Shown here piece after piece: positions 9,393 to 21,693 of a DNA stretch of 21,693 nt. The stretch's first letter is position 1. Each line of letters begins with the position of its first letter. A program made the position numbers and the translations under genes. The notes below the pieces were generated by a model. That model had not been told where the DNA came from. It saw only the letters and a program-made list of their open reading frames with translations, and did not search any database. The stretch is from a virus, in IMG/VR virus record IMGVR_UViG_3300044823_000209, positions 1 to 21,693 of that record; one strand, written 5' to 3'.

Positions 9393-9701
9393 TCAAATTC
9401 GCCTGTTTGGGCAGTTCCGGTTTTTACAGACTTCTTCCGATGTATTCCGGTAGGTGTCTAATTTTTTTACAGGTGGAACGGGAAGCTTTTGGAGTAACAT
9501 TATCAACTTTTCCGGATCTTTCTCATTGATACTGAGCCACCATCTTGCTATATGAGCGGGATGCAACTTAAAATAATCTGAAACGTGGTAAATGGTGATG
9601 TGATCGACTCCGTATAGTTCACGGATTTCCTTTGCGATCCTGGATCCTGTCTTATCGCTGCAACCTATCAGCTTTGACAGTTCCTTGATAGAGATTATCA
9701 T
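9393..9701 (-). CDS. Helix-turn-helix DNA-binding protein
   Basis: 102 residues. Residues 1-35 form a helix-turn-helix (Ile-Ser-Ile-Lys-Glu-Leu-Ser-Lys-Leu-Ile-Gly-Cys-Ser followed by a basic recognition helix), as in small excisionase-like and adaptor proteins of Bacteroidota phages. The middle is helical with Trp-Trp, and the C-terminus is basic with two Cys. It lies on the minus strand, divergent from the plus-strand cargo island. The 537-base gap upstream of it holds three dyads (9829-9887) that look like operators, so it is a natural candidate to control that intergenic region or its own gene. This link is inferred from position. Confidence 0.65.
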   Translation of the reverse strand: MIISIKELSKLIGCSDKTGSRIAKEIRELYGVDHITIYHVSDYFKLHPAHIARWWLSINEKDPEKLIMLLQKLPVPPVKKLDTYRNTSEEVCKNRNCPNRRI

Positions 9702-9754: not shown

Positions 9755-9828
9755 AACTTCCACCCTAACAATAGCGTGGACTAATTCTACATTACTCTGT
9801 TTTGCGGCACTCTGAGTGTTTCAACCAG

Positions 9829-9887
9829 TGTAAAAAAAATTGACACCAGTGTAAAATCTTTTTACAGATATGTCAAAAATTTTGACA
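9829..9887. promoter_or_regulatory. Three 17-bp operator-like dyads at exact 21-bp spacing
   Basis: The sites are 9829-9845 TGTAAAAAAAATTGACA, 9850-9866 TGTAAAATCTTTTTACA, and 9871-9887 TGTCAAAAATTTTGACA. Each has the shape TGTmAAAA-n-TTkACA. The second has 7-bp perfect arms and the third 8-bp perfect arms. Start-to-start spacing is 21 and 21 bp, two helical turns, so three dimers would sit on one face of the DNA. I read them as a cooperative operator in the control region between the divergent helix-turn-helix and cargo genes. The regulator is unknown. Confidence 0.75.
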
Positions 9888-10061
9888 CTTTTCAAAAATA
9901 TGAAAAATTCAACTATTTAATTATTAATTATATGAAAAATTGGCATGATTTTTGCATATAATATTCATTTTCAATCACTTATTATTCATTGGTAATCAAC
10001 CTAACAGCTAAATCAGGATACTGTTTCATATACGGAATCGTTAATTATAATATTAGGGGAA

Positions 10062-10238: not shown

Positions 10239-11243
10239 ATGAAAAGAAAAACTCTTTGCGCTTTTATAGTACTAATTGGTATTTCATTGTTATTCTCAAT
10301 GAATGCATGTAAGAAAGAGCAACAAAAACAACAGAATAAATCAGAATTGTCAAATGAGTTAAGTCAACAAGTGTTAAAACTTGTTGATAATTTCATAAAA
10401 AACAAATCAAGCAAATTAAAAGATGGCGAAAGCTTATCAGTCGACAGTACTATCTGGTATCTTGAAACTGCGATGAATGCAACCTATGCCCGAATGGATT
10501 CTATTACAAAAGTCCTTTTAACGGATTCAGCCTTTATTTCTATTCCAATGAACAGGGATGGGACAATAAATCTAAGCGATGTTTATACAGCATATAATCA
10601 ACTAGTGGATAGCTTGTCTGTGTTTTATTATTCAGTAAATGGCGATAAAAGTGTCCTTGTTAATGATGTTTTTAAAGTTGGAATAGCAAATAATCAATTG
10701 CAAGTTGGCATTAATATGATTTTAGCGCAACTACCGACACCACCTCACCCACCAATTTGGTTTGGGACAATTGACAATTGGATTTGGGGAAATCAATTAG
10801 GGAAATGCGATTACACTTTACAACCTCGTGATGCATCAACTGAATTAACAACGCATGCTAATTACAATATTCCAATTGCACCACCAGGGCAGTATTATAC
10901 ATACGTAAATGTCGAAAAGACACCAATGATATATCCTACTGATGTTCCTTTACCACAAGGTCAAACTAACCCGTATGGCTATTTCAACAGTTATTTGTTT
11001 AGAAATAGTGGCAACGTTTATATGGATGAATGTCTAACATATAATGTTATGAATTATTATTTACAAAACCTTTTTACCATTAGTACCATTTACCAACCAC
11101 AAGGGAAGGAAATAATTAAATATGAAGTCTGGTATGACTATGCTGTGGGATCTGGTTATCTTCATATCCATAGAGCCAAGCTGACCTATGGGACAAGAAT
11201 TATCGCCTATTATCCAGCTATAAATCCACCATCGGGAGAATAA
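10239..11243 (+). CDS. Cargo lipoprotein of the plus-strand island
   Basis: 334 residues. The N-terminus is a lipoprotein signal: Lys-Arg-Lys, a hydrophobic core, then Met-Asn-Ala-Cys with Cys24 as the likely lipidated residue. Lys-Lys-Glu follows, close to the charged stretch that sends Bacteroidota lipoproteins to the surface. A helical, Lys/Ser/Asp-rich region follows (about 30-165). The last third is beta-rich with many Tyr, Asn and Pro, including a Pro-Pro-His-Pro-Pro segment near 170. I recognise no enzyme motif. Codon use is AT-rich and unlike the phage backbone. It is the first large gene of the island and is likely exposed on the host surface. A role in attachment exclusion or host fitness is inferred only from location. 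Confidence 0.8.
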   Translation: MKRKTLCAFIVLIGISLLFSMNACKKEQQKQQNKSELSNELSQQVLKLVDNFIKNKSSKLKDGESLSVDSTIWYLETAMNATYARMDSITKVLLTDSAFISIPMNRDGTINLSDVYTAYNQLVDSLSVFYYSVNGDKSVLVNDVFKVGIANNQLQVGINMILAQLPTPPHPPIWFGTIDNWIWGNQLGKCDYTLQPRDASTELTTHANYNIPIAPPGQYYTYVNVEKTPMIYPTDVPLPQGQTNPYGYFNSYLFRNSGNVYMDECLTYNVMNYYLQNLFTISTIYQPQGKEIIKYEVWYDYAVGSGYLHIHRAKLTYGTRIIAYYPAINPPSGE

Positions 11244-11265
11244 AATATCACCTTATTTATATTAC

Positions 11266-11273
11266 TAATTTTG
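11266..11273 (+). promoter_or_regulatory. Possible -7 element (TAATTTTG) for the secreted cargo gene
   Basis: TAATTTTG fits TAnnTTTG and lies between the lipoprotein stop and the large inverted repeat. No TTTG -33 partner is visible. If used, the inverted repeat would fall in the 5' leader of the next gene. Confidence 0.25.
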
Positions 11274-11286
11274 TTGAATATTTATA

Positions 11287-11345
11287 AATAATGAATTCAT
11301 TCTGTATCGAGGTCTAAAGAACAGGTACAGAATGAATTCATTATT
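11287..11345. repeat. Perfect 20-bp inverted repeat with 19-base loop
   Basis: The left arm 11287-11306 (AATAATGAATTCATTCTGTA) and right arm 11326-11345 are exact reverse complements. The loop is 11307-11325. It ends 14 bases before the ATG of the secreted protein gene and begins 44 bases after the lipoprotein stop. It may be a terminator for the first gene (the stem is AT-rich and the downstream U-run is poor), an mRNA-protecting hairpin, or a leader structure limiting translation of the second gene. Confidence 0.85.
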
Positions 11346-11359
11346 ATACTTTCAATTCT

Positions 11360-12823
11360 ATGTGCAAAAGACAAATTATTTCTTTCATGTTATGTCTGAT
11401 TTGTGGTATTCATCCTGTAATATCTCAGACAACATTTAATATAACGGTAAAAGATACTGTTTACGATCACCAGATTATGGATGCGGTAGAACTTCCTTCC
11501 GGTGACTTTATTATTGTCGATGTCACAAATCTCAGCCCATCAACAAGCTGTTCGAGATTACTAAAGATAAGCCGTAAAGGTGAAGTTCTCATTCATAAAG
11601 ATATCAGCTACGAAGGCATTTCCTCATGGCTTTCTTCTGTTAACCAAATATCTGATAACAAGTTATTATTGAGTGGGGCGGTACAATTCCCAGAATTATC
11701 CCGGCTTTGGTTTTGTACCATTGATACATCACTGAATATAATTCAGAATAAAACATTTTCGCTTTCAGGGTATAATCTGTTTATGAGTAAAGTTAAAATT
11801 GGAAGCAATAATGATATAATCTGTTATGGTACTGTTGAAGACACAACAAGTTACCAAATGGACTTTTCTTTCATTTATACACTTACCATGGAACTTGACA
11901 GTCTTCATTTAAAAATCTTTGGAGATCATTGGGCATTTGGTTTAGATTTAATTGAGCGGAATGATCTTCAGGGTTATTATTTTGCGGTTTTAGGTTTTAG
12001 TAGTTCAAGCGGTCCAGGAAATATTGTAAGTCTTGATAATTCCTTTAACGTTAAAAAAATAGTAGGCATTGATCAGGATCTTAACAATATGAGTTCAATA
12101 CAATATACTGATCCGACTCATTTTATAGTAACCGGAGAGTATGAAAAGTCCTGGCCTTATGAACCAACAAGGGACATAGGGGCTGTTTATTATGACACTG
12201 CCTTTACTCCTAAACACTTTAAAGCCTATGGTAAAATAGACACGGAGGATTGCCCTGGATTTTTTAAAAATATTGGCGTGTCAGATGCACATTCAATATT
12301 CATCGCTGGAACAGCTAATTTTGATTATGGTAGTATTCTATCAACACAGGATTCATGGTATCTCCTTAATAATGTCGATACAACTCTGGGACTTAACTGG
12401 CAGAAATATTACGGCGGAGATGGTTATTATAGCCTATTTGGAATATTAGCTACCAGAGATAGCGGTTGCCTTATGTTTGGCACTTTTTGGGATTATCATC
12501 ATACCCAGAAGCGTATCCGATATCTATCCCTGATTAAGGTCACAAAGGAAGGACAATTCCTGTCCGTTAATAACGAACCAACTGCAAGTGTGCACGAAGT
12601 TATCATTTACCCAAACCCCGGAAATGATAGGATTTACGTTGAAACGCAATTGAAGAATGCCACATTCTTCCTATATGATCTTACAGGTCGGGAAGTACTT
12701 CATGTCGGTCTTCTTCCTGGACGCATTTCCATTCAGATTCAGAATTTGAATTCTGGTATCTATATCTATAAAGTAATTCAGAATTCACAGGTGAAAGAAT
12801 GTGGGAAATGGATTAAAGAATAA
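11360..12823 (+). CDS. Secreted T9SS cargo protein, beta-propeller-like, with sorting domain
   Basis: 487 residues. A signal peptide ends near residue 23 (Ile-Ser-Gln). The body, about 25-400, is a succession of short beta blades (repeats of a hydrophobic strand, then Ser/Asp/Asn turns and Trp/Phe), as in the six- to seven-bladed propellers of Bacteroidota secreted proteins. From residue 414 to the end is a type A T9SS C-terminal sorting domain: a Tyr-Pro-Asn-Pro start, a Leu-Tyr-Asp-Leu-Thr-Gly-Arg-Glu strand, a Leu-Asn-Ser-Gly-Ile-Tyr turn and a final basic strand. The host must own a type IX secretion system to place it on the surface. No catalytic motif is recognised. It is AT-rich, with no GGATCC. 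T9SS cargo inside a phage genome is unusual. Confidence 0.85.
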   Translation: MCKRQIISFMLCLICGIHPVISQTTFNITVKDTVYDHQIMDAVELPSGDFIIVDVTNLSPSTSCSRLLKISRKGEVLIHKDISYEGISSWLSSVNQISDNKLLLSGAVQFPELSRLWFCTIDTSLNIIQNKTFSLSGYNLFMSKVKIGSNNDIICYGTVEDTTSYQMDFSFIYTLTMELDSLHLKIFGDHWAFGLDLIERNDLQGYYFAVLGFSSSSGPGNIVSLDNSFNVKKIVGIDQDLNNMSSIQYTDPTHFIVTGEYEKSWPYEPTRDIGAVYYDTAFTPKHFKAYGKIDTEDCPGFFKNIGVSDAHSIFIAGTANFDYGSILSTQDSWYLLNNVDTTLGLNWQKYYGGDGYYSLFGILATRDSGCLMFGTFWDYHHTQKRIRYLSLIKVTKEGQFLSVNNEPTASVHEVIIYPNPGNDRIYVETQLKNATFFLYDLTGREVLHVGLLPGRISIQIQNLNSGIYIYKVIQNSQVKECGKWIKE

Positions 12824-12861
12824 GCTTCATTTAACATCAAGTCACAAAAAGACCGATAATA

Positions 12862-13110
12862 ATGGAAAAGATAGTTTATTGTTTGAAGAAAAAAAAGGAC
12901 ACGGAGGAATTACATCTGTTTGAAGCAAATCCAACTATTGATAATAAATGCATGCCTAAAGAGGATTCTATTTGTAAAAAAATGAGAAAGAACGAGAGTT
13001 CGGAAAATATTTTTTCATGCAAATCAATAGAAGATGCGAGAACTCAATGTGCAAAAATAGGCAGAAAAGTATGTGGAATTTGTGTCAGCCATTTATATGA
13101 GACCTATTAA
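12862..13110 (+). CDS. Small Cys-rich cytoplasmic protein of the island
   Basis: 82 residues, no signal peptide, seven Cys (7, 30, 38, 53, 63, 71, 74). The C-terminal part has a Cys-x9-Cys-x7-Cys-Gly-Ile-Cys arrangement followed by Val-Ser-His-Leu-Tyr, and looks like a compact metal-binding or Fe-S-like fold. The N-terminal part is Lys-rich. It lies 38 bases after the secreted protein gene on the same strand and ends 30 bases before the convergent terminase gene. I recognise no named family. A regulator or redox-sensitive accessory are possible. Confidence 0.65.
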   Translation: MEKIVYCLKKKKDTEELHLFEANPTIDNKCMPKEDSICKKMRKNESSENIFSCKSIEDARTQCAKIGRKVCGICVSHLYETY

Positions 13111-13140
13111 CGTCAGCTACATTTAAACTCACGAAACTGA

Positions 13141-14367
13141 CTAATTCTCTTGTTCCATCACAAAACTTCTCCGACCAAGCTTAGCCATACAACCATAGCG
13201 GAGTGCGTCAAGGGCATGGTTGAAGGCATCAATCGGTACGTTGATCGGCTTGCCGGTCATTTTATCCTGTTCCCATTTATAATTGCGGAGTTCCTTGATC
13301 ATATTCACGCTGTCCTGAGTCACGTTCAGTTTATACTGCCGCACAAGCTGAATACCCTGATTCACGCTGTCGGCTCCTTTGGTCACTCCTTTGATCAGCC
13401 AACCATTTTGCCTGAGTTCATAAATAGACTTGGGTTCTGCCGAGTCTGCTATGATGAAGTCTTCGTTCTTCTTCAGCCCTGCCTGTTCCATTCTCAGGGA
13501 AATGTCCTTATTTGTCATACCGGTTTCATAGAACATTTCCTGTACCCACAACTCACCACCCTGTACACAGGTTTTGATCAGTGCTGAGGGATCATTTGTA
13601 AAGCCAAAATCTAACCCATACCAAACGGAATCAACCTCTGTGGGAAAGAAGGTTGACTGAAACCAATTCGTGTAAATTACGCCCTCTTTCGTACCCATTT
13701 CACCTTCACCGTAAACCTTCCACCAGTTAGGATCCCCGGCTTTTCGTGTCAGGATACTGGCCTTGATTCGTGGATCCAAATAAAGGTTATGGATAAACGT
13801 GGACTTGTGAAAACTTACATGACTTTTGCCGATCAACTGCTCGTTTACCCAAAACTCACTGACTGGATTGTAGTCCAAAAAAACTCTCAGCTTCGTCCTG
13901 ACCTCAAGCTGATCGAAAACCTCCCAGGGTACATTATTGCACTCGTTGATGTAGAGAATATCCCTTCTTGCTCCCCTGATCTTTGCAGGATTGTCGGCTG
14001 AGAAAAACTCTATGACGTTTTTACCAATGGTGTATGTATTGTCGCTCTTATTGTGGAACTTTTCATTATAAATGCCGTATTCAATCAGCATTTTCAGGAA
14101 GTCACGCATTGCACCCCTTCTGAGGTGAGGCAAGGTTTCTGAAACAACTGAAATCAAAACAGGATCCGGGTTATAAATCAGGTAGGTCAAAAGCACCTGA
14201 AGTATGGAATAGGTTTTGCTTGAGGACGTACCGCCTTGGTTTATGACGATCCTTTTTTTGCTTATCAGCGTCCAATCATAAACATCGGTGGTGTTGATAT
14301 CATCCCTGCTGGGGAGGATCGACTTCAAAAAATTTCCCACTTTCAATAAGTTTCTTGGCTTCTTCAC
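13141..14367 (-). CDS. terL: Terminase large subunit
   Basis: 408 residues with a GTG start; the frame overlaps the terminase small subunit gene by 68 bases and a later start is possible. It is the ATP-driven motor that packs phage DNA into the head and cuts it. The ATPase half has a Walker A variant, Gly-Gly-Thr-Ser-Ser-Ser-Lys-Thr at residues 45-52, and a Walker B-type Ile-Leu-Tyr-Ile-Asn-Glu at 137-142. The nuclease half has the RNase H-like acidic series: Asp253 in Gly-Leu-Asp-Phe-Gly-Phe, Asp308 in Ile-Ala-Asp-Ser, and Asp387 in Asn-His-Ala-Leu-Asp-Ala-Leu-Arg-Tyr. This matches the Terminase_3/PBSX type. Its length is normal. Downstream lies the cargo island instead of portal. Confidence 0.95.
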   Translation of the reverse strand: MKKPRNLLKVGNFLKSILPSRDDINTTDVYDWTLISKKRIVINQGGTSSSKTYSILQVLLTYLIYNPDPVLISVVSETLPHLRRGAMRDFLKMLIEYGIYNEKFHNKSDNTYTIGKNVIEFFSADNPAKIRGARRDILYINECNNVPWEVFDQLEVRTKLRVFLDYNPVSEFWVNEQLIGKSHVSFHKSTFIHNLYLDPRIKASILTRKAGDPNWWKVYGEGEMGTKEGVIYTNWFQSTFFPTEVDSVWYGLDFGFTNDPSALIKTCVQGGELWVQEMFYETGMTNKDISLRMEQAGLKKNEDFIIADSAEPKSIYELRQNGWLIKGVTKGADSVNQGIQLVRQYKLNVTQDSVNMIKELRNYKWEQDKMTGKPINVPIDAFNHALDALRYGCMAKLGRRSFVMEQEN

Positions 14368-14845
14368 TCATGACGTTGATCTTAATGTCCTTGAGGGTAT
14401 GCGTAACATCACGTTCCTGCCTATCTCTCCATTTGTCCGGTTGCCGGTTCTTGAGCCAAAAAATAGCGGCTGTTACATCGGACGGAATGTATTTCTTGGT
14501 CTTTTTGACTGAGGTAGGCATGGCATCACCGTTCTTGCTTACCTTCACTTCCTGCGAGGTTTCTTCAAACTCGAACCCGACGGCTCTTTTGAAGACCGCA
14601 TTCTCGACCTGAATGTCGGCTTCTTCCTTCGATGTTTTTAGGGTTTCTTTAATCTTGGGAAATTCTCTCTTTAATTTCAGCCAAGTTGAGATACTGATCC
14701 TTAGCTTTTTGGCTATTTCTCTCTCCGTTGCTCCATCCCTGCACCATGCAGCGATCTTTATTAATTTGTTGTCAAGGTCATACTTAGCATATAAGTCTTC
14801 CCGGGGTCTTCCCCCTTTACCCGAGTTTCTCTTCACTCTCTCCAT
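14300..14845 (-). CDS. terS: Terminase small subunit
   Basis: 181 residues from the ATG at 14845, inside the end of the ParB-like gene. It recognises phage DNA for packaging. The N-terminus has Gly-Gly-Arg-Pro-Arg, then a helix-turn-helix (about residues 25-60: Trp-Cys-Arg-Asp-Gly-Ala-Thr-Glu-Arg-Glu-Ile-Ala). A central helix (Ala-Val-Phe-Lys-Arg-Ala-Val-Gly) and a C-terminal Phe-Trp-Leu-Lys-Asn-Arg-x-Pro-Asp-Lys-Trp-Arg-Asp motif follow; this last motif is typical of terminase small subunits. It lies just before the large subunit and overlaps it. Confidence 0.9.
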   Translation of the reverse strand: MERVKRNSGKGGRPREDLYAKYDLDNKLIKIAAWCRDGATEREIAKKLRISISTWLKLKREFPKIKETLKTSKEEADIQVENAVFKRAVGFEFEETSQEVKVSKNGDAMPTSVKKTKKYIPSDVTAAIFWLKNRQPDKWRDRQERDVTHTLKDIKINVMSEEAKKLIESGKFFEVDPPQQG

Positions 14846-15596
14846 TTGATTCTTGTTCGTCAATTTCCTTGATCTTCTGTTCACAGATCTCAAGCATTTT
14901 TATAAAAGCGATAGTATTGTTTTTTATGTTCGTCCGCTTTTTAACTTCAGTCATGATTCGGATGAAGTCCACAAAGTTCACAAAGCAAAAGGCTGAATTC
15001 TCGTCCATCTTTCGTTTATCCAAAGCCTCGAGGACTTCTCTGATCCTCTCTGCCTTGAACTGAGTGAATACAAACTTGATCTCATGTAGTTTTATATCGT
15101 CTTCCGATATTGAGGGAAGGCTGATCGTCTGATAGTCCAAAAACATCAGGTCGTTCAATCCGGTGAATTCCTTTTGAGCAAGTCCTTCTATTTCGTTGAA
15201 CAGATCCTTGAGCATTTGCATATCGTCTTTCCCTACCAGGGTGTTATGGCTCAACTGATACCCGAGTTCTTCATCCCGGGTAAGGTTCTCAACGTACATG
15301 ATTAACACATAGTCAAGCTTGGCTTTTAACGCTGCCTTGATCCGGTGGTTCCCGGAAAGGATTTTGTACTTTCCGTTTTCCATCTTCAAGCCGAAAGGTA
15401 GCTGACTGAGGAACCCATCTTTCTGAATGTTCTCCGTCAGGCGGTCAAATTTCTCCTTGTCCATAAAATGAGCGTTTCGCTCAAGCAACACACAATCGTC
15501 CTTCGGTGAAACGTAGGCGAGTTTGTAGGGTGTGATAAGTAAATTTATGTCTTCGAGTTTCCCTCTGACGAGTTCGACTTTTTGCGTTTCATCCAT
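14817..15596 (-). CDS. ParB/sulfiredoxin-fold protein of the modification module
   Basis: 259 residues. The N-terminal half is a ParB/Srx nuclease-type domain: Arg-Asn-Ala-His-Phe-Met at 40-45, a helix with Asp-Gly-Phe at 60-62, and Ser-Gly-Asn-His-Arg-Ile-Lys-Ala-Ala-Leu at 81-90, the signature of the nucleotide-binding box. The rest is helical (about 105-245) with a Lys/Glu-rich C-terminus. There is no partition ParA nearby, so segregation is unlikely. ParB-fold proteins next to base-modifying enzymes in phages are thought to act as nucleases, CTP/ATP-binding switches, or DNA-modification partners. It overlaps the 443-residue modification gene by 52 bases upstream and the terminase small gene downstream. 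Confidence 0.85.
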   Translation of the reverse strand: MDETQKVELVRGKLEDINLLITPYKLAYVSPKDDCVLLERNAHFMDKEKFDRLTENIQKDGFLSQLPFGLKMENGKYKILSGNHRIKAALKAKLDYVLIMYVENLTRDEELGYQLSHNTLVGKDDMQMLKDLFNEIEGLAQKEFTGLNDLMFLDYQTISLPSISEDDIKLHEIKFVFTQFKAERIREVLEALDKRKMDENSAFCFVNFVDFIRIMTEVKKRTNIKNNTIAFIKMLEICEQKIKEIDEQESNGESEEKLG

Positions 15597-16876
15597 GCTA
15601 TAAAAATGTCTTTTATGGTTGCGTTCTTGAATTCTCCTTCGTAGATCAGCTTGCCTTTATCCCTTCTCTCGAGTTTTAAGACTCCCCGGTATTTCATGGA
15701 AACCGGCTTATCGGTGTAAACGGTAGTTTTAACCTTGTCAAAATAGTTCTTATATCCGTCGACCAACTCTTCTCTTACTTCTTTTGACAGAAGCAACATG
15801 ATTACAAGCTTGCTCAGCTGCTTCTCTGAGGCACTCACCACAAAGTCACTATGAATGAACGCACTCTGCTGAGTGGACAGGAATTTGCTGAAACAGGCAA
15901 AGCCGAAAAGTTTATCATCTGCGAAGAACAGCAACCCTAAATCGCCACCAAGGGAATAATCCACTTTTGCTGCCATGAAAAAGCCTTTGTAGTAATTCAC
16001 CTCGTCTGCCTTGCCAAACCTTACTGATAGTTTGGTGTCAGGTGTGAATTTAAAGTCATAGGGCATCATCGGATAAGGCTTTACCGGCTTTGTGACCTGC
16101 TTTTCAAGGTAAAATTTAGTATCCCTGTCGACTGATGAATAAATGAAAATGTCATGCCGGCTTTTTCCGAGCCTTACTTTTGCGATCACATACTCACTGA
16201 GGTTCGGGAATTCCCGGTCGGAGTAAATTATATTCTCGTCCCCTTCAAGCATCCCCTGAAACAATGTACCGGCTCCCTTGGGATCAAACAGTTTATAGGG
16301 TGCAGGTTCATAGCTGAAAGTTTCGTCAATAAACTGAAACAGCTTTTCGTAACCGCCTTTGTATGTCGGAGGGAAGAGGATCCCGATACCTTTACCTTGC
16401 TTCTCCTTGATATGATCCACAAAGTCACCGTAGAAAAAGTCAGCGATCTTAAAGTTTAGGGATTGCGTTCTCTCAAATTTCTCAACGGTCTGCGTATGGA
16501 ACTCGTTTGCCTGATCGATGTAGTATTTGAAAAAGGTCTTCTGATAGTCGTTTTTCTGTGCCCTGAACCCGGATATTTTGATGATGTAAAGTATTTGAAT
16601 CAGATTCTTGTACCTGGACTCCTGCCATTGACTAAAGACTCCCTCAAAAAGCGGATCGTTGACCTTTACTTCATGGTCCCGCCCTAAGAGAATATCGGCA
16701 ACCGTTCTCGAGTATAATGAAACGTCATTCGAGTGCACCTTGCACCCATGAAACGCTGCAATCTTATCGACGGTGAAGTTCCCGGAGCAACCGATATAAA
16801 CGTTCTGCCCTTTTCTCTTACTAAGGATCTCATTTAGCAATAATCTTACTTCCGGTGGGGTGGTTCCTACAAACAT
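15545..16876 (-). CDS. Two-part DNA-modification protein: methyltransferase-like plus Mom/GNAT-like
   Basis: 443 residues. The N-terminal part has a Rossmann motif I-like Ile-Gly-Cys-Ser-Gly-Asn-Phe-Thr at 28-35 and an acidic motif His-Ser-Asn-Asp-Val-Ser at 48-53. The place where an adenine methyltransferase has Asp-Pro-Pro-Tyr reads Phe-Pro-Pro-Thr (168-171), followed by Tyr-Lys-Gly-Gly-Tyr. The C-terminal part (about 285-415) has an acetyltransferase-like strand order and a Thr-Asp-Lys-Pro-Val-Ser-Met-Lys-Tyr-Arg-Gly motif at 388-398. I associate this motif with phage proteins called putative antirestriction adenine methyltransferases and with Mom-type modification. The predicted role is hypermodification of phage bases to evade restriction. 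The chemistry is inferred. It overlaps the DUF488 stop by one base (TAATG). Confidence 0.7.
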   Translation of the reverse strand: MFVGTTPPEVRLLLNEILSKRKGQNVYIGCSGNFTVDKIAAFHGCKVHSNDVSLYSRTVADILLGRDHEVKVNDPLFEGVFSQWQESRYKNLIQILYIIKISGFRAQKNDYQKTFFKYYIDQANEFHTQTVEKFERTQSLNFKIADFFYGDFVDHIKEKQGKGIGILFPPTYKGGYEKLFQFIDETFSYEPAPYKLFDPKGAGTLFQGMLEGDENIIYSDREFPNLSEYVIAKVRLGKSRHDIFIYSSVDRDTKFYLEKQVTKPVKPYPMMPYDFKFTPDTKLSVRFGKADEVNYYKGFFMAAKVDYSLGGDLGLLFFADDKLFGFACFSKFLSTQQSAFIHSDFVVSASEKQLSKLVIMLLLSKEVREELVDGYKNYFDKVKTTVYTDKPVSMKYRGVLKLERRDKGKLIYEGEFKNATIKDIFIAWMKRKKSNSSEGNSKT

Positions 16877-17286
16877 TAAAAAAGGTTTAATTGCGGATCC
16901 GGTTTACTCTCCGGGATCCCGGTAAATTCGATCACTTCAACACTTATATTCTCCTTGAGCCATTCTGCCACTAACCTTCTGTGGCACATTACGTCAAGGA
17001 CTTCCCAACAAAGCAAGGCAACGTCACCACCTGCACCCATGATATAAAGACTTCGTAAAATGTTTTTCGGATCACGCCTTTCTAACCTTGATTTGAATTG
17101 ACGTTCATATTCTTCCCAGGTAATTTGACCTGATTTCGACAGGCTTACCATTTGATAGGACGGTGCTAACTCGATCAAGCTTGCACCTTTATACCATGCC
17201 GGGGGGTGTATTGCAATAGAAATCGGTTTTATCTCAGATGTTTTCAGCTTTGACAGGTTCCCGAAATATGACGTAAATATCTTCAT
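16876..17286 (-). CDS. DUF488 family protein
   Basis: 136 residues from the ATG at 17286; a TTG two codons upstream is less likely. DUF488 features: an Ile-Ala-Ile-His-Pro-Pro segment near 24-29, a central Tyr/Pro/Ser region, and Val-Ala-Leu-Leu-Cys-Trp-Glu at 89-95 followed by Cys-His-Arg-Arg-Leu-Val-Ala-Glu-Trp-Leu at 101-110. This is the family's strongest signature. DUF488 function is not settled; several members lie with nucleic-acid modification or repair genes. Here it is the first gene of the cluster with the Mom-like and ParB-like proteins, so it is probably an accessory to DNA modification. It starts the operon after a non-coding gap with promoter-like elements. Confidence 0.85.
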   Translation of the reverse strand: MKIFTSYFGNLSKLKTSEIKPISIAIHPPAWYKGASLIELAPSYQMVSLSKSGQITWEEYERQFKSRLERRDPKNILRSLYIMGAGGDVALLCWEVLDVMCHRRLVAEWLKENISVEVIEFTGIPESKPDPQLNLF

Positions 17287-17396
17287 TGTCAATTCATTAC
17301 GCTTATAAATATACTTTATTTTTTGGAGATAAGCAAGTTTACAAGCAGTTATTTTTCAATTAGTTACCTTCCCATTCTGCTGAATACATTGAGGGG

Positions 17397-17404
17397 CAAA
17401 TATA
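17397..17404 (-). promoter_or_regulatory. Putative -7 element (TATATTTG) before the modification module
   Basis: On the minus strand TATATTTG matches TAnnTTTG exactly. A TTTG lies 15 bases upstream (17420-17423), shorter than the usual 19-21. The element is 110 bases before the DUF488 start. This 165-base gap between the small membrane protein gene and DUF488 is the only sizeable gap in the right half, so a promoter here is expected. Confidence 0.4.
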
Positions 17405-17457
17405 GTACCGTATTCGCTTCAAATTACCTTTCAATATTTTTTAATTATCAACAAACT

Positions 17458-17628
17458 TCATTTTAAGGGTATTTTCAAGGCACAAACAAAGCCGTTCCAA
17501 AAGGATCCAAACAACTGCCCGACCTCGGCAGGCTTGAATACTAAGGATACAAATAAGGCTGCGACGACTAAGAGAATAAAGCATATCAGGATCTCCCTGA
17601 GTATTTTTACAGTGTTCATGGTTTTCAT
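17458..17628 (-). CDS. Small single-pass membrane protein
   Basis: 56 residues: a basic start (two Lys, an Arg and Glu within residues 1-12), one hydrophobic segment of about 20 residues (13-32) made of Ile, Leu, Val, Ala and Phe, then a short Gly/Phe/Trp tail ending with Leu-Lys. The start ATG lies 5 bases after the TAA of the DnaA-like gene, which supports coupled translation and reality despite the small size. No family is recognised. A holin-like, superinfection-exclusion or regulator-tether role is possible but not shown. Confidence 0.6.
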   Translation of the reverse strand: MKTMNTVKILREILICFILLVVAALFVSLVFKPAEVGQLFGSFWNGFVCALKIPLK

Positions 17629-17632
17629 TTTT

Positions 17633-18211
17633 TTAAGTTAAGATTATTGCTTCAATTTCCTTGATTAAATTCGCTTGATCCTTGTAGGCAGGTGAGGAGA
17701 AAATAGTACGGAATTTCCTCTGGCCATGTATGACAGTAGCATGGTCAGTGAATACAAAGATTGCGGCAAGTTTACTAAGGGATATTTTTGGATACCTCTT
17801 TTTAACAACGTGCCAAACACAGTGCCTTGCAAATACGAATTCCTGCTTCCTGCATCGGATTCCCAGGTCGTTGGGATCCACAACTAATTTGTCGCATACT
17901 TTTTGGACTACGAATTCTATGAATAGTTTCTGTGCGTCCTGTACGGAAATTTCAGGCATGGTCTCTGAAACCTTGAACCGTTTAGTGATTGTACGATTCA
18001 CGACCTGAGTGGTGAGGGTATAGATTGCATTACAGTTCCCACACTTGCCTAATCCCTCAATGACCAGCATATTTTTTGATCCCTGGGGTAATGTATCACC
18101 AGGGCAGTACTCAGCTTGTAGGTTCTCTAACGCTTTTATCTGAATTGCTGCATTATGTCTCTTTCCGCACTTCGGGCATTTGATATTTTTATGATGAATT
18201 ATGTCGAACAA
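17633..18211 (-). CDS. Zinc ribbon fused to DnaA domain IV, without ATPase
   Basis: 192 residues with a likely TTG start (no ATG in the usable part of the frame). N-terminal zinc ribbon: Cys12-x2-Cys15 and Cys57-x2-Cys60. A linker of about 30 residues follows, then a helical region and a DnaA C-terminal domain (about 115-170): Arg-Lys-Gln-Glu-Phe-Val-Phe-Ala-Arg-His near 121-130 and Asp-His-Ala-Thr-Val-Ile-His-Gly-Gln-Arg-Lys-Phe at 156-167. The latter is the DnaA signature that reads the DnaA box (Asp-His-Ser-Thr-Val in bacteria). There is no AAA+ domain, so it cannot melt an origin by itself. It could occupy or mark DnaA boxes, compete with host DnaA, or act in phage gene control. Candidate boxes lie at 1164-1199 and 9258-9266. 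Confidence 0.8.
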   Translation of the reverse strand: MFDIIHHKNIKCPKCGKRHNAAIQIKALENLQAEYCPGDTLPQGSKNMLVIEGLGKCGNCNAIYTLTTQVVNRTITKRFKVSETMPEISVQDAQKLFIEFVVQKVCDKLVVDPNDLGIRCRKQEFVFARHCVWHVVKKRYPKISLSKLAAIFVFTDHATVIHGQRKFRTIFSSPAYKDQANLIKEIEAIILT

Positions 18212-18220
18212 TGCTTTGGA

Positions 18221-18252
18221 GTTTAAGGGATCCCCCGTTTAAGAGGGATCCC
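18221..18252. repeat. Tandem GTTTAAG-GGATCCC units able to pair as a hairpin
   Basis: Unit 1 (18221-18234) and unit 2 (18237-18252) share GTTTAAG then GGATCCC, with two extra bases in unit 2. Because GGGATCCC (18227-18234 and 18245-18252) is its own reverse complement, the units can pair as an 8-bp stem with a 10-base loop in RNA. It lies between the DUF2303-like stop and the TTG start of the DnaA-like gene, where it could hold back translation or cause partial termination. Confidence 0.7.
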
Positions 18253-18260
18253 GGTGAAAT

Positions 18261-18980
18261 TTATACTTCAATTACGACGATCTCAGGGGCGGTTTCGTCA
18301 ATCGCCTTGAGTTCCCGGTCAATGATCTTGTTCCCCTCGACCTTGATAACATCGTTTGCCTCTACACTTTCCAGGACACAGTCTATGTCAGCGTCTCGGG
18401 CGATTAAGTTTATTTCAACGTTGAACTTCCTGGGCTGCTCTCCCTTGAAAACAGGAAGCGTTAAGGTGAAGGAAGCCGGGATATTGCTTTCAACTGCCTG
18501 GTCGAACAGGATCCGGGTGTTTGCCCTGTTGTCCTGTGCATTTTCAACCTGCTTGTTGATCTTTGCCTTGATGTTTTTAAGTTCAGCAACGATTTTCATG
18601 GCTGCTCCCGAGTCCTCGAAACAGTACCGGTGCATCCTGAGAAAGTCTGCAAGATCTTTCGGGTTCCTCTTTTTCCCGGTATTGATTTCAAACTCCTTGA
18701 AGTCTTCGTCAAAGAGTAACTGACCTTTTACCTTACCTTCCGTGAAGGGATTAGTTTCATTGAAAGTCAGTTCAACACTCAGGCACTTCCTGGATACCTC
18801 GATATGAGCAAGTCCTTCATCAAGATCGTTAACTCTTTTTTTGACAAACCTGCTCACACTATCAATGTTTCCCTGTAATTTCAAAGGAGTAGGGTTTGAA
18901 ACCTCAATGGCTTCTCCGGTCCTGATTACCAATTCACTTACGCCTTCCTTGGCGGTGATTTCAATTTTCTGCGTTTCCAT
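18261..18980 (-). CDS. DUF2303/YfdQ-like phage protein
   Basis: 239 residues. The layout matches DUF2303 (YfdQ) proteins: an N-terminal strand region, a central Leu-Ala-Asp-Phe-Leu helix near 109-113, an Asp-Ser-Gly-Ala-Ala-Met segment, then a helix of about 30 residues and a C-terminal beta core that begins Ile-Pro-Ala-Ser-Phe-Thr-Leu-Thr-Leu-Pro-Val-Phe near 168. YfdQ function is unknown. Members occur in phage early regions beside recombination genes, as here. Start and upstream stop overlap by one base (TAATG). Moderately sure of the family; it is not a precise hit I can test. Confidence 0.65.
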   Translation of the reverse strand: METQKIEITAKEGVSELVIRTGEAIEVSNPTPLKLQGNIDSVSRFVKKRVNDLDEGLAHIEVSRKCLSVELTFNETNPFTEGKVKGQLLFDEDFKEFEINTGKKRNPKDLADFLRMHRYCFEDSGAAMKIVAELKNIKAKINKQVENAQDNRANTRILFDQAVESNIPASFTLTLPVFKGEQPRKFNVEINLIARDADIDCVLESVEANDVIKVEGNKIIDRELKAIDETAPEIVVIEV

Positions 18981-19414
18981 TATACTTCGTTTTGTGCAAC
19001 CTTCATTGTACGGCTGCTGTTAATACTCAGTTGTCCTTCTTCGGGTGTCATTCGCCTCGAGGAAATCAGATCTCCCCGGTCGTCATACACTCCGAGCATG
19101 CCGGTAGTGAAGTCTTTGAGAGTGAACACCCTTCCTTTGACCACCCTCTGCCGGGTTTTCAAGGTGTGCATCATTTCTTTCATTTCCTCACGCATCGGTT
19201 TAAGTTCTTCTGCGAACCTCTCTTTTACCGCTTTCAGTTCCTCTTCAAGGGCATTGACTTCGATTGCCTTCTGAGTGAAGTCGATCCGCTCCTTGTCGAG
19301 TTCTTCCTGGGTTAAAGGTTTTGCATAGGTCTGCTCTCCTACGCTTTCTGCATTTGCCTCGAGCATTTCTGCTCTCTGATCCAAAGGCACTTCCTGAAAC
19401 AATTTACTGTCCAT
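18980..19414 (-). CDS. Coiled-coil phage protein of the recombination operon
   Basis: 144 residues from the ATG at 19414; the frame runs further upstream, but that start would overlap the NinB-like gene by almost 100 bases. Residues about 42-95 are a strongly charged Glu/Lys/Arg/Leu coiled coil. The C-terminal 50 residues form a small beta-rich unit with Tyr-Asp-Asp-Arg-Gly and Met-Thr-Pro-Glu-Glu. No family is recognised. It lies between the NinB-like and DUF2303-like genes and probably assists early DNA metabolism. Confidence 0.7.
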   Translation of the reverse strand: MDSKLFQEVPLDQRAEMLEANAESVGEQTYAKPLTQEELDKERIDFTQKAIEVNALEEELKAVKERFAEELKPMREEMKEMMHTLKTRQRVVKGRVFTLKDFTTGMLGVYDDRGDLISSRRMTPEEGQLSINSSRTMKVAQNEV

Positions 19415-19419
19415 GATTT

Positions 19420-19926
19420 CTAATTTTGGTTTATAACTAACTTGAATTCTTTTTCTGATCTTTCGAAGTCTAAATCTCCCTGTTCGTTTGGAAGCGGTAC
19501 TGTGATACCGAACCATTCTTCAATAAATCTCCGGCACTTCTCAAGGTATATTTCAAAGTCAACCGTACTGAGGTCTGCCGTACTCTTGGAAACTCTCAGG
19601 ATCTCCCCGGTTTCCTCTTTTATGATCTCTTTGAAATTACACTCCCGTTTTAAGGTTTCATGTGCCTCTTCTGCCGTGATCCAATCCTCAGTAGTTTCGT
19701 GGTATCCCTGGCAATATTCAGAAATGACTATTCCCCAGTAGTACCCATTTTGTCCTTTACCGTTGTCGGTGAAAGTGGATCGTTTGTTGTAAAGTTTTTC
19801 GACGGTTAACTTAATTCTGCAGTCCGGAAAGTTTTTTACCATTTGTGAAAATGTATCCCGGTAACTGATTTTCAGCTTGCCGTCCTTTACGGATCCATAA
19901 GTTTCTATTTTCTTCCCGGTTGTCAT
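19420..19926 (-). CDS. NinB-like recombination protein
   Basis: 168 residues from the ATG at 19926, which overlaps the upstream stop (ATGA). It has the layout I know from Bacteroidota phage proteins placed in the NinB superfamily: a beta core with Leu-Thr-Val-Glu-Lys-Leu-Tyr-Asn-Lys-Arg-Ser near 40-50, a Gln-Asn-Gly-Tyr-Tyr-Trp-Gly motif near 59-65, a Cys-Asn-Phe-Lys-Glu-Ile segment near 96-101, and a C-terminal helix with Phe-Gly-Ile-Thr-Val-Pro near 139-144. NinB binds single-stranded DNA in recombination. Together with the NinG-like and single-strand binding proteins this makes a recombination set. Confidence 0.7.
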   Translation of the reverse strand: MTTGKKIETYGSVKDGKLKISYRDTFSQMVKNFPDCRIKLTVEKLYNKRSTFTDNGKGQNGYYWGIVISEYCQGYHETTEDWITAEEAHETLKRECNFKEIIKEETGEILRVSKSTADLSTVDFEIYLEKCRRFIEEWFGITVPLPNEQGDLDFERSEKEFKLVINQN

Positions 19927-20258
19927 AACTGAGCGATTGCAGGGGTGTTCGGTCTTACAAGGGTATGCCAAAGGTTTTCTATTTCAACTCTGACCTTCGG
20001 GAACATCGGAGCCGGTATTTCTGATTTCATGATGGGAACCTTTTTCACCTTTACGATACCAGGCAAAGGGTTGACCTTTTTCAGGATCCGGTCACAGTTT
20101 GGATCCAAAACCTCCGACAGTCTTCTGAGGTGGAATTCTTCTTTTTCGAGGTATACTCCATAAATGACTCTGTATACGCAAGCCGGTTCTTTGGCTTCCG
20201 TTGCGAACGCCTGAACTGCGTCCATTGCGTTCTGCTTTGTTGCAAATGTTGTCTGCAT
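19923..20258 (-). CDS. Small hypothetical protein between recombination genes
   Basis: 111 residues, soluble, mixed charge, no motif I recognise. It begins with a helical Ala/Thr/Gln segment and has a Lys/Val-rich middle with Pro residues. It starts 3 bases after the upstream gene ends and its stop overlaps the NinB-like start by 4 bases. Tight packing argues that it is real. Function unknown. Confidence 0.65.
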   Translation of the reverse strand: MQTTFATKQNAMDAVQAFATEAKEPACVYRVIYGVYLEKEEFHLRRLSEVLDPNCDRILKKVNPLPGIVKVKKVPIMKSEIPAPMFPKVRVEIENLWHTLVRPNTPAIAQL

Positions 20259-20261
20259 GGC

Positions 20262-20543
20262 TTAGTTTTTTGAGATTTGTACTTTAGTTAGTCCCCACTC
20301 TTGCATTTTCACTACCACAACGGCATGAGTCTCGAAATTCACTTCCTTTGTGGCTTCTCGTAAGAGTACCGAATAGCCGTTAAACATAGCTGGTGAGTCC
20401 GGGGTATAGATGTTCATTTTTTTCGTTCCGACGGGAAGTAAATCATACAAGTTTGTGCTTGCAGCCGATAACACTTTCCGGGGCACGATTGCGAAAAAGA
20501 TATTTCCCTTTAAATGCTTGAGTTCGATGTTATCTAAGTTCAT
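20262..20543 (-). CDS. Small hypothetical protein downstream of NinG-like gene
   Basis: 93 residues, mixed helix and strand, no Cys, no membrane segment. It overlaps the NinG-like gene by 14 bases. The sequence carries no motif that I can name; the Val-Val-Val-Val-Lys strand near 75-79 suggests a small beta fold. Part of the early operon by spacing. Confidence 0.65.
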   Translation of the reverse strand: MNLDNIELKHLKGNIFFAIVPRKVLSAASTNLYDLLPVGTKKMNIYTPDSPAMFNGYSVLLREATKEVNFETHAVVVVKMQEWGLTKVQISKN

Positions 20544-20946
20544 ACCCTTTCCTTTTCAATTCTGCCTTAAATTCTGCGATCATGTATTTCAGATCAAAGG
20601 CATTTCTCTTGGTGATCATTTTTGACTTGAATAGCATGGCTTCTGATATTCCTGCCCCGTATTTCTTATCGAGGTATTGAGCAAATTCAAACTGACGACC
20701 TTGAGAAAAAATATTGCAGGAAACACATTGAGCACCGGTGTTTTTTTCATCAAAACGGGTTGACTTGTTTCCTCTCGAAATGAAATGGCCATTCTGTAAA
20801 CGCCTCCAATGATGGATTGCTCCACAGGTGCAACACTTTGCAAGTCCGATTTCGTTTGCTGCTTTTTGTCTGACAAGTAATGAAAAGAGGCGGTCTGCCT
20901 CTGCTTCGAGTTTAGCGAATGATAGAGTTTTAATAGCAGTCTTCAT
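20530..20946 (-). CDS. NinG (Rap)-like recombination endonuclease
   Basis: 138 residues from the ATG at 20946, which overlaps the HNH gene's stop by 4 bases; an in-frame start five codons earlier is less likely. The zinc-site pattern of NinG is visible: Cys38-Cys39-x-Cys41-Gly, then His-His-Trp, Gln-Asn-Gly-His-Phe near 51-55, Thr-Arg-Phe-Asp near 63-66, and Cys74-x2-Cys77-Asn. NinG (lambda Rap) cuts recombination junctions. It is shorter than lambda NinG, which has a longer N-terminus. A lysine-rich helical tail follows the core. Confidence 0.85.
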   Translation of the reverse strand: MKTAIKTLSFAKLEAEADRLFSLLVRQKAANEIGLAKCCTCGAIHHWRRLQNGHFISRGNKSTRFDEKNTGAQCVSCNIFSQGRQFEFAQYLDKKYGAGISEAMLFKSKMITKRNAFDLKYMIAEFKAELKRKGYELR

Positions 20947-21479
20947 GCAACGTGTTTCCATGTTTGGCGGTTTAAAATCTGCTGAATTGAACTAACACAA
21001 ACCCTATATTCTTCTGCGAGTGCTCTCATTGAATATGTCCTCGGAATGTATTTTGTTCGTATATCTCGAATTTGCTTTTCGGTGAATCTTGAAAAGGGAT
21101 GATGTTCTCCTTTCTTTGATTTTTGGAGTCCTGTCCTGACTGCATGAAATTGATTTTCAGAACGAGTGACCCATTCAAGGTTTTCAACTGAATTGTTCAG
21201 TTTATTGCCGTCGATATGATTTACTATTGGCTTATAGGCGGGATTAACAATAAAGGCACTTGCAACAAGTACGTTGACCTGATGGAGTTTTTTAATTCCA
21301 TCCTTGCTTAAACAAATACGAAAATAATCATCCATTTTAGCTTTTAAAATTCTACCTGGAACTCCTTGCATTGATCCTGATTTTCCTTTCTTGAGCCTCG
21401 GGAGTGATTTAACTCTTCCGAGGTTTGAGATTTCATACTTTCCCTCATATCCGAGAATTGATTTCCATTGTTCTGTCAT
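20943..21479 (-). CDS. Free-standing NUMOD4/HNH homing endonuclease
   Basis: 178 residues. N-terminal NUMOD4 motif: Gln-Trp-Lys-Ser-Ile-Leu-Gly-Tyr-Glu-Gly at 4-13 and Ile-Ser-Asn-Leu-Gly-Arg-Val-Lys-Ser at 17-25. The HNH_3 core lies at about 66-110: His67, then Asn-His-Ile-Asp-Gly-Asn at 87-92 and Leu-Glu-Trp-Val-Thr near 101-105. A C-terminal DNA-binding helix-turn-helix is at about 135-172. Such enzymes cut phage DNA lacking the gene and spread by repair. It lies between the single-strand binding gene and the NinG-like gene without an intron that I can see, and overlaps the latter by 4 bases. Confidence 0.9.
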   Translation of the reverse strand: MTEQWKSILGYEGKYEISNLGRVKSLPRLKKGKSGSMQGVPGRILKAKMDDYFRICLSKDGIKKLHQVNVLVASAFIVNPAYKPIVNHIDGNKLNNSVENLEWVTRSENQFHAVRTGLQKSKKGEHHPFSRFTEKQIRDIRTKYIPRTYSMRALAEEYRVCVSSIQQILNRQTWKHVA

Positions 21480-21503
21480 AATTTATTGATAATTAACTTG
21501 TTA

Positions 21504-21693
21504 TCAAAAAGGGAGATCGTCAATTGGTTGCTGAGGTGGAGTTTCAATACTTCCGGTGTTCTGAACTTCCTCACTTGCCTTCAATTCGGCCTTTTGTATG
21601 AAGTCTTCAACTTCTTCCTCTTTTACCGGTTTTGGCTTATCTGCCGGTTGAACATTGCCCGATAGCCAGATATTTCCACCATCGGTTTTCCGG
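21504..21693 (-). CDS. ssb: Single-strand DNA-binding protein, C-terminal part
   Basis: Only the last 62 codons are inside the window; the start lies beyond the right edge. It contains Trp-Leu-Ser-Gly-Asn, a Glu/Lys/Pro-rich linker, and the acidic tip Ile-Asp-Asp-Leu-Pro-Phe at the very end. That tip is the hallmark of bacterial and phage SSB, by which it recruits partner proteins. It heads the recombination operon (NinG-like and NinB-like genes downstream), as usual. The OB-fold core cannot be seen here. Confidence 0.8.
   Translation of the reverse strand, partial: RKTDGGNIWLSGNVQPADKPKPVKEEEVEDFIQKAELKASEEVQNTGSIETPPQQPIDDLPF

Follow-up and report, generated by a model that had tools for sequence, protein, structure and literature searches.

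The gene at positions 17633–18211 (minus strand) of the window, i.e., the whole 21,693-base virus record analysed in this study, encodes a protein of 192 aa with a TTG start, an N-terminal pair of Cys knuckles, and a C-terminal half that adopts the DnaA domain IV fold without an ATPase. DnaA tails lacking AAA+ are a large, annotated phage class, of which this architecture is a rare variant; it is only the head that is unusual, not the tail. Our tentative first choice, at somewhat less than an even chance, is that the protein is a DNA-binding adaptor belonging to a phage replication and recombination module, where it would dock a partner onto a phage site of diverged sequence.

The reading frame holds at the predicted coordinates, strand and length, TTG being the earliest start codon downstream of the previous in-frame stop. 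The DUF2303 gene comes before it and a 56-aa ORF (17458–17628), judged by eye to look membrane-bound, comes after it. Its codon score is 0.004, on a measure built from ten other window genes that themselves score from 0.001 to 0.098, while 500 random synonymous versions average −0.055 and reach at most 0.023; this backs coding status weakly, and the domain match is the better support. The record may be a fragment, and one ORF is truncated at its right end. A Por secretion tail (PF18962) found by profile search on one window protein points to a Bacteroidota host. That protein, with its type IX secretion sorting tail, is encoded together with a lipoprotein-like protein (recognised by eye) in a low-GC island on the plus strand (10239–13110), probably the cargo genes of a Bacteroidota phage.

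The DnaA DNA-binding domain of the original prediction was recovered by profile search, with the absence of AAA+ that had been claimed for it. Bac_DnaA_C (PF08299) matches residues 98–166 (17714–17920, minus strand) with 43.2 bits (cut-off 31.5; E 3.9e-11 on the protein alone, 2.0e-13 in the record-wide search), and profile searches of the 192 aa gave no AAA+ family or Walker A match. The DnaA equivalog model TIGR00362 aligns through its C-terminal part only (positions 319–418 of 437), scoring 38.5 bits against the 343.9 asked of full-length DnaA, and the remainder of the protein outside the tail is shorter than 100 aa. The AlphaFold model (67 rows) is confident from about residue 91, with block means of 89–95 pLDDT over residues 91–190, and VIA-align superposes it on E. 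coli DnaA domain IV bound to box DNA (1j1v) with Z 15.4 and an rmsd of 1.5 Å over 94 residues; 8btg and 3pvp follow at Z 15.2 and 15.1, while unrelated entries lie at about 5. Among the latter were TFIIB-type, MarR and TrpR folds, taken to be common helical arrangements. Foldseek ranks 1–7 are all DnaA structures (best E 1.2e-3). A phmmer search of PDB sequences returned nothing significant (8btg at E 0.5, behind an unrelated chain at 0.11), and a profile of 67 viral tails, the window protein included, finds 1j1v at 2e-16. Structure prediction thus bore out the domain IV fold, but left the strands of the head at low confidence.

The head is predicted to be a zinc ribbon, and this is likely. 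The knuckles C12-P-K-C15-G (CPKC, residues 12–15, 18167–18178) and C57-G-N-C60 (CGNC, residues 57–60, 18032–18043), both on the minus strand, are pairs that we take to be typical zinc knuckles; 41 residues separate them, many for such a pair, and further cysteines occur at 36, 106, 120 and 131. Two AlphaFold runs place strands around each knuckle (4–11 and 18–24 around the first, 54–56 and 63–65 around the second), with low block pLDDT (41–69 in the first 80 residues, 35–64 for the head alone). Of the four-Cys ribbon proposed earlier, the cysteines are in place, but the nearest ribbon profiles, YjdM-type (E 0.025) and TIGR04104 (E 0.015), both fall below cut-off.

Searches for the whole architecture returned no full-length relatives in phages (tblastn, E 0.01) or plasmids (tblastn, E 1), and peptide patterns picked out three stretches in viral contigs, none confirmed. 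The head alone matched 37 phage records at E 10, the best among the matches listed being a chance-like 0.1, and its 12 weak matches in 395 Bacteroidota genomes (0.003–0.05) were scattered, half with internal stops, and were taken as chance. The full protein matched 332 of those genomes, nearly all of the matches listed being in open frames of about 460–550 aa, i.e., host DnaA; short frames among them occur in G001 (128 aa), G362 (95 aa) and G328 (194 and 360 aa), and none of those listed starts before residue 57, so that none reaches C12–C15. Two viral DnaA tails have short Cys-rich heads of different spacing, L576 (3085–3573) and L726 (11709–12044); the first has the one paired CxxC seen in 446 viral DnaA-tail ORFs, with shorter spacing than in the window, and the second a lone CxxC at its N-terminus.

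The tails themselves are abundant. The motif DHATV[IL]HG occurs at no fewer than 208 loci in viral contigs (88 plus at least 120), and none of the 208 ORFs has a Walker A or a paired CxxC, two have a single CxxC, 194 are complete, and the longest is 286 aa. DHSTVIH and DHTTV.H add at least 240 further loci, from which 238 ORFs pass a DnaA-tail profile (E 1e-3), two with Walker A, one with a paired and six with a single CxxC. Walker A is therefore present in 2 of 446 motif-bearing viral ORFs but in 21 of the 22 relatives confirmed among 110 pattern matches in genome contigs, the other one being a 127-aa tail in a Bacteroidetes MAG; full dnaA genes are in any case rarer in viral contigs, and the contrast should be read with that in mind. 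In the best 50 rows from a viral structure library, all 31 named entries are phage 'DnaA C-terminal' proteins, the other 19 being unnamed.

The class is also diverse, 199 sequences (five isolates included) forming 45 groups at 40% identity, and it is represented in annotation by Cellulophaga phi19:3 gp13 ('DnaA protein'), Tenacibaculum Gundel_1 gp36 and Pelagibacter HTVC034P gp20, all without AAA+ and with heads that differ from the one described here. A DnaA has also been named among phage genes in published work (PMC6811365, PMC4615864), and, by title among the matches listed, the open-licence literature held no experimental study of these proteins. PHROGs assigns 5 of 67 viral tails to 'replication initiation protein' and 3 to 'DnaA-like replication initiation protein'. 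The window protein matches the unnamed phrog_16091 only, and weakly (E 1.6e-4, residues 97–185), yet it has the features of the class: a phage gene, fewer than 300 aa, one DnaA tail and no Walker A. Like the proteins of phrog_16091, phrog_27829 and phrog_30669, it is a small phage protein with a single DnaA tail and no ATPase, in a group where recombination or replication genes are often nearby. In a tree of 142 domain sequences the host DnaA proteins cluster (4 changes against 41.7 when shuffled) and the window protein joins 29 viral tails at an open fork (81/84), in no starred set. As the branches are long, few columns are available, and the single sequence most similar to it (32% identity) is a host DnaA, descent of its domain from viral tails rather than from host DnaA is favoured only weakly.

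How such a tail would read DNA can be approached through the residues that do so in E. coli, where R399, P423, D433, H434, T435 and H439 make the specific box contacts (PMC7561715) and R399 is the minor-groove reader (PMC5742627). The DnaA box-reading signature claimed for residues 156–167 is there, as D156-H-A-T-V-I-H162-G, the recognition-helix motif DHATVIHG (residues 156–163) being encoded at 17723–17746 on the minus strand. Alignments put R121, S146, D156, H157, A158 and H162 at the six contact places, Arg121 (17849–17851, minus strand) being the equivalent of Arg399. In fold and domain length the tail resembles DnaA domain IV (PF08299; 1j1v, 3pvp, 8btg), and four of the six contacts are kept (the equivalents of R399, D433, H434 and H439). 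Domains I–III are lacking, however, and VFT precedes the D433 place where DnaA has GGR. The P423 place is Ser, whereas all 29 host Bacteroidota DnaA sequences compared have Lys there (they come from the 30 best-matching loci, one of which fell outside the search pattern); at the T435 place the window protein has Ala and the same 29 have Ser. With four contacts kept and two changed, the protein probably reads DNA in the manner of DnaA, but its target is not certainly the same site.

These residues bear directly on whether the protein is an antagonist of host replication, whose tail would occupy the DnaA boxes of host oriC, or titrate DnaA, and, being without AAA+, would block initiation. The largely conserved base-reading residues agree with this and with the DnaA mimic of the original prediction, a protein taking over host boxes, but the P423 and T435 places are unlike those of the host. 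A depletion of box words might be expected if phage DNA were kept free of the target, and the eight TTWTNCACA words pooled over 84 viral representatives with tails were indeed observed 93 times against 147.5 expected. This count, however, was made without control phages and with small numbers per word, one word (TTATACACA) is not depleted (21 vs 15.6), and boxes are not depleted in the window. Overall, the antagonist reading is considered unlikely.

In the window, exact TTWTNCACA occurs six times where 2.9 would be expected (a count reached in 22 of 300 shuffles), and one-mismatch boxes 72 times against 58.3 (reached by 4 of 100 shuffles), many of the latter in the AT-rich 9.7–10 kb region. 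There are no exact boxes in 13057–21693, which counts against the adaptor, and the vicinity of the gene holds no cluster of exact boxes or iterons and no iteron-like repeat family. At 1167–1196, inside ORF 494–1243, an inverted pair of exact TTATTCACA boxes has its starts 21 bases apart. Operator-like repeats (GTGTAAAA...TTGACAC, TGTCAAAAATTTTGACA) occupy 9824–9890, between an HTH-like ORF on the minus strand (9393–9701) and the plus-strand island, and one-mismatch boxes are dense there too. Classical boxes were rejected as the target in viral loci, TTATCCACA being found nine times in the 208 loci (related ones included) against a permutation median of 20, about rank 1516 of 1680, and six times in the 84 representatives against 9.7 expected. 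In the excerpted text of a CtrA study of alphaproteobacterial phages, predicted DnaA sites were not unevenly distributed (PMC9437464). Given that viral loci with such tails show no enrichment of classical boxes, and that none of the six in the window is near the gene, a phage-side adaptor that has its own site is favoured.

Support for the adaptor comes from the domain and its fold and from the recombination- and replication-type genes that share its strand. The upstream neighbours are a DUF2303 (YfdQ-type) gene directly adjacent (18261–18980; PF10065 1.9e-6, 27.7 bits vs 26.6; phrog_11501 2.7e-59), a NinB/Orf-like recombination mediator (19420–19971; phrog_72 2.8e-9), a NinG/Rap-like endonuclease (20530–20961; PF05766 3e-12, phrog_5034 1.7e-24), and the 3′ end of a possible SSB gene cut by the end of the record (21504–21692), which has no Pfam match and whose translation ends in DDLPF, presumably the SSB tip motif. 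Downstream, also on the minus strand, are the terminase large and small subunits (13141–14893; PF17288, PF04466, phrog_309) and, at 14817–16876, a ParB-like gene that overlaps a fusion of DAM-like-phage1 (PF22555) and GNAT-phage-like (PF22559) domains, possibly a DNA-modification pair. In several phages DUF2303 has replication genes in its vicinity. Isolates of Bacteroidota phages with AAA+-less tails show comparable settings: Gundel_1 has the order NinB, DnaA tail, replication protein, DNA replication protein, Arctus_1 has a 'DNA replication protein' directly upstream of its tail, and phi19:3 has one (COG1484) about 2 kb away. Against the adaptor, PF08299 was found in none of six DUF2303-bearing records (one only 4.6 kb long), and no helicase, loader or primase was found among the window genes scanned, which were part of the ORFs of a record that may be a fragment.

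The neighbours were surveyed more widely in the 69 viral representatives, out of 84 clusters, that had sufficient flank, taking the one nearest same-strand gene of at least 130 aa within 3 kb on each side; 63 had one upstream and 62 downstream, and the family counts overlap. Upstream, an exonuclease VIII family is present in 9 of 63, and downstream there are DnaD-like loader families in up to five, a replication initiation family in five and O-like families in three of 62, with terminase families, in up to six, as common as the replication ones. The kind of neighbours is also the one support found for the suggestion that the gene marks a replication origin. They are open to a different interpretation, however, namely that the protein is a transcription regulator with a DnaA-type HTH, such as an early/late switch or an autoregulator. 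The gene stands between recombination genes and terminase, and terminase being the next long downstream gene in up to 6 of 62 fits an early/late border. The protein is basic (pI 9.4), and DnaA itself regulates promoters. The gene is preceded by a strong RNA hairpin (18227–18252, minus strand, between the DUF2303 and DnaA-tail genes; −20.1 kcal/mol, z −3.64, matched by 1 of 200 shuffles) and a repeated GGGATCCC/TTAAAC element, but GGGATCCC also occurs within coding sequence, and no set of matching operator-like sites was found upstream of other operons. A regulator is somewhat unlikely.

The DUF2303 neighbour can also be read in favour of an antagonist, as YfdQ belongs to this family and the YfdQRST cluster of the E. 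coli prophage CPS-53 inhibits DnaA-dependent initiation (PMC4776307). The two systems have a DUF2303 gene and a link to DnaA in common, but the excerpted text of that report describes no DnaA tail in CPS-53, and the DnaA binder there is YfdR (PMC4776307), of which no similar family was seen among the window genes scanned.

In marine relatives, the region immediately behind terL holds an array of three to seven direct repeats (such as TTAAACATAGTAGG, TTAAACGCAGTAGG and GTTTAATATRAAGGGG), which in those examined is followed by a stretch that looks AT-rich. Arrays of the TTAAACRYAGTAGG type occupy this place in L224, L205, L211 and the loci found by iteron pair, all in phages with AAA+-less DnaA tails, and are possibly a replication origin or a packaging site. 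When contigs were chosen by the iteron pair alone (at least 120), the matches listed included 20 distinct records at least 29 kb long, and every one of these had a DnaA tail in an open frame of 135–219 aa, with E values no worse than 6.5e-6 and 17 of them over cut-off, while a DnaB_C helicase, or phrog_2514, which is one loader family among several, was found in none of the 20. Among 80 TerL relatives, 42 had enough flank, and 27 of these had tail and array, nine the tail only, six the array only and none neither, under a loose array rule (three 8-mers, without a shuffle control). Of 30 TerL-relative loci without an upstream tail, the records of 18 were searched and 10 had one (three already seen further downstream, the rest divergent); in three of the 18 (41, 29 and 23 kb) no tail was detected. 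Since no record lacks both tail and array, function and shared ancestry are not separated by these counts.

These arrays would suit an ATPase-free mode of phage initiation, in which the motorless tail binds the origin by reading its own iterons, as with the TTAAACRYAGTAGG-type arrays, and variable heads (here the zinc ribbon) recruit the host helicase, a step invoked because no DnaB_C was found in the iteron phages searched. We regard this as rather unlikely. Direct binding of the iterons by the tail is, on sequence grounds, unsupported by box resemblance or by covariation with subfamily: TTAAACATA and TTAAACGCA fit six of the eight fixed TTWTNCACA positions, but this fit is equalled by 21% and 11% of their shuffled versions, and the fits of five other iterons by 21–81% of theirs, so that the resemblance was not taken as evidence for DnaA boxes. 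Nor does iteron type track tail subfamily, as TTAAACATAGTAGG occurs in two unlike subfamilies and TGTGAATTCAATAGG likewise in two. The repeats found in 40 of 208 and 32 of 194 loci (none in a block-shuffled control) include coding repeats and were not counted as iterons. Separately, 15-base repeats occur near the DnaA-tail gene in L200 (about −0.8 kb), where by eye they read like a pentapeptide-repeat protein, and in L206 (about −1.0 kb), where only a 15/30 spacing was seen.

The same arrays, being just behind terL, could suit a role in targeting DNA during recombination or packaging, with the tail addressing a partner enzyme to its site. Exonuclease, NinB, NinG, terminase and ParB-like genes among the neighbours are in keeping with this, and in one viral relative, L128 (10691–11341), the tail is joined to a VRR_NUC-like nuclease domain (E 3.3e-4; its 21.1 bits fall short of the 23.8 cut-off), where it may serve as the addressing part of an enzyme. 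The window protein, however, has no nuclease domain, and no such array lies behind the window terL, and this role appears improbable.

In the preferred reading, that of an adaptor, the DnaA tail would bind phage DNA at a diverged DnaA-like site. Since it could not form the ATP-DnaA filament or open DNA itself, it would serve as a landing pad, the basic Cys-knuckle head replacing domains I–III as the docking surface. Loading the helicase and opening the strands would fall to partners or to the host. Candidate partners are a helicase, a helicase loader, SSB or the recombination machinery, and host DnaA; the choice is a guess, because no relative of the head was found. There is a precedent in DnaI, whose N-terminal zinc-binding domain touches the DnaB helicase (PMC3791466), a zinc-binding head in a replication protein, although the analogy is one of role only and DnaI has an AAA+ domain.

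In DnaA, box reading is coupled to an ATP-driven filament. Here a widespread class of phage proteins has kept only the reading half, whose role on its own becomes the question: it could designate an origin, act as a competitor of the host or control gene expression. The Cys-knuckle form described here shows that the head is exchangeable. If the link to the iterons is true, cultured marine phages would provide a minimal initiator together with its site, directly testable in vitro.
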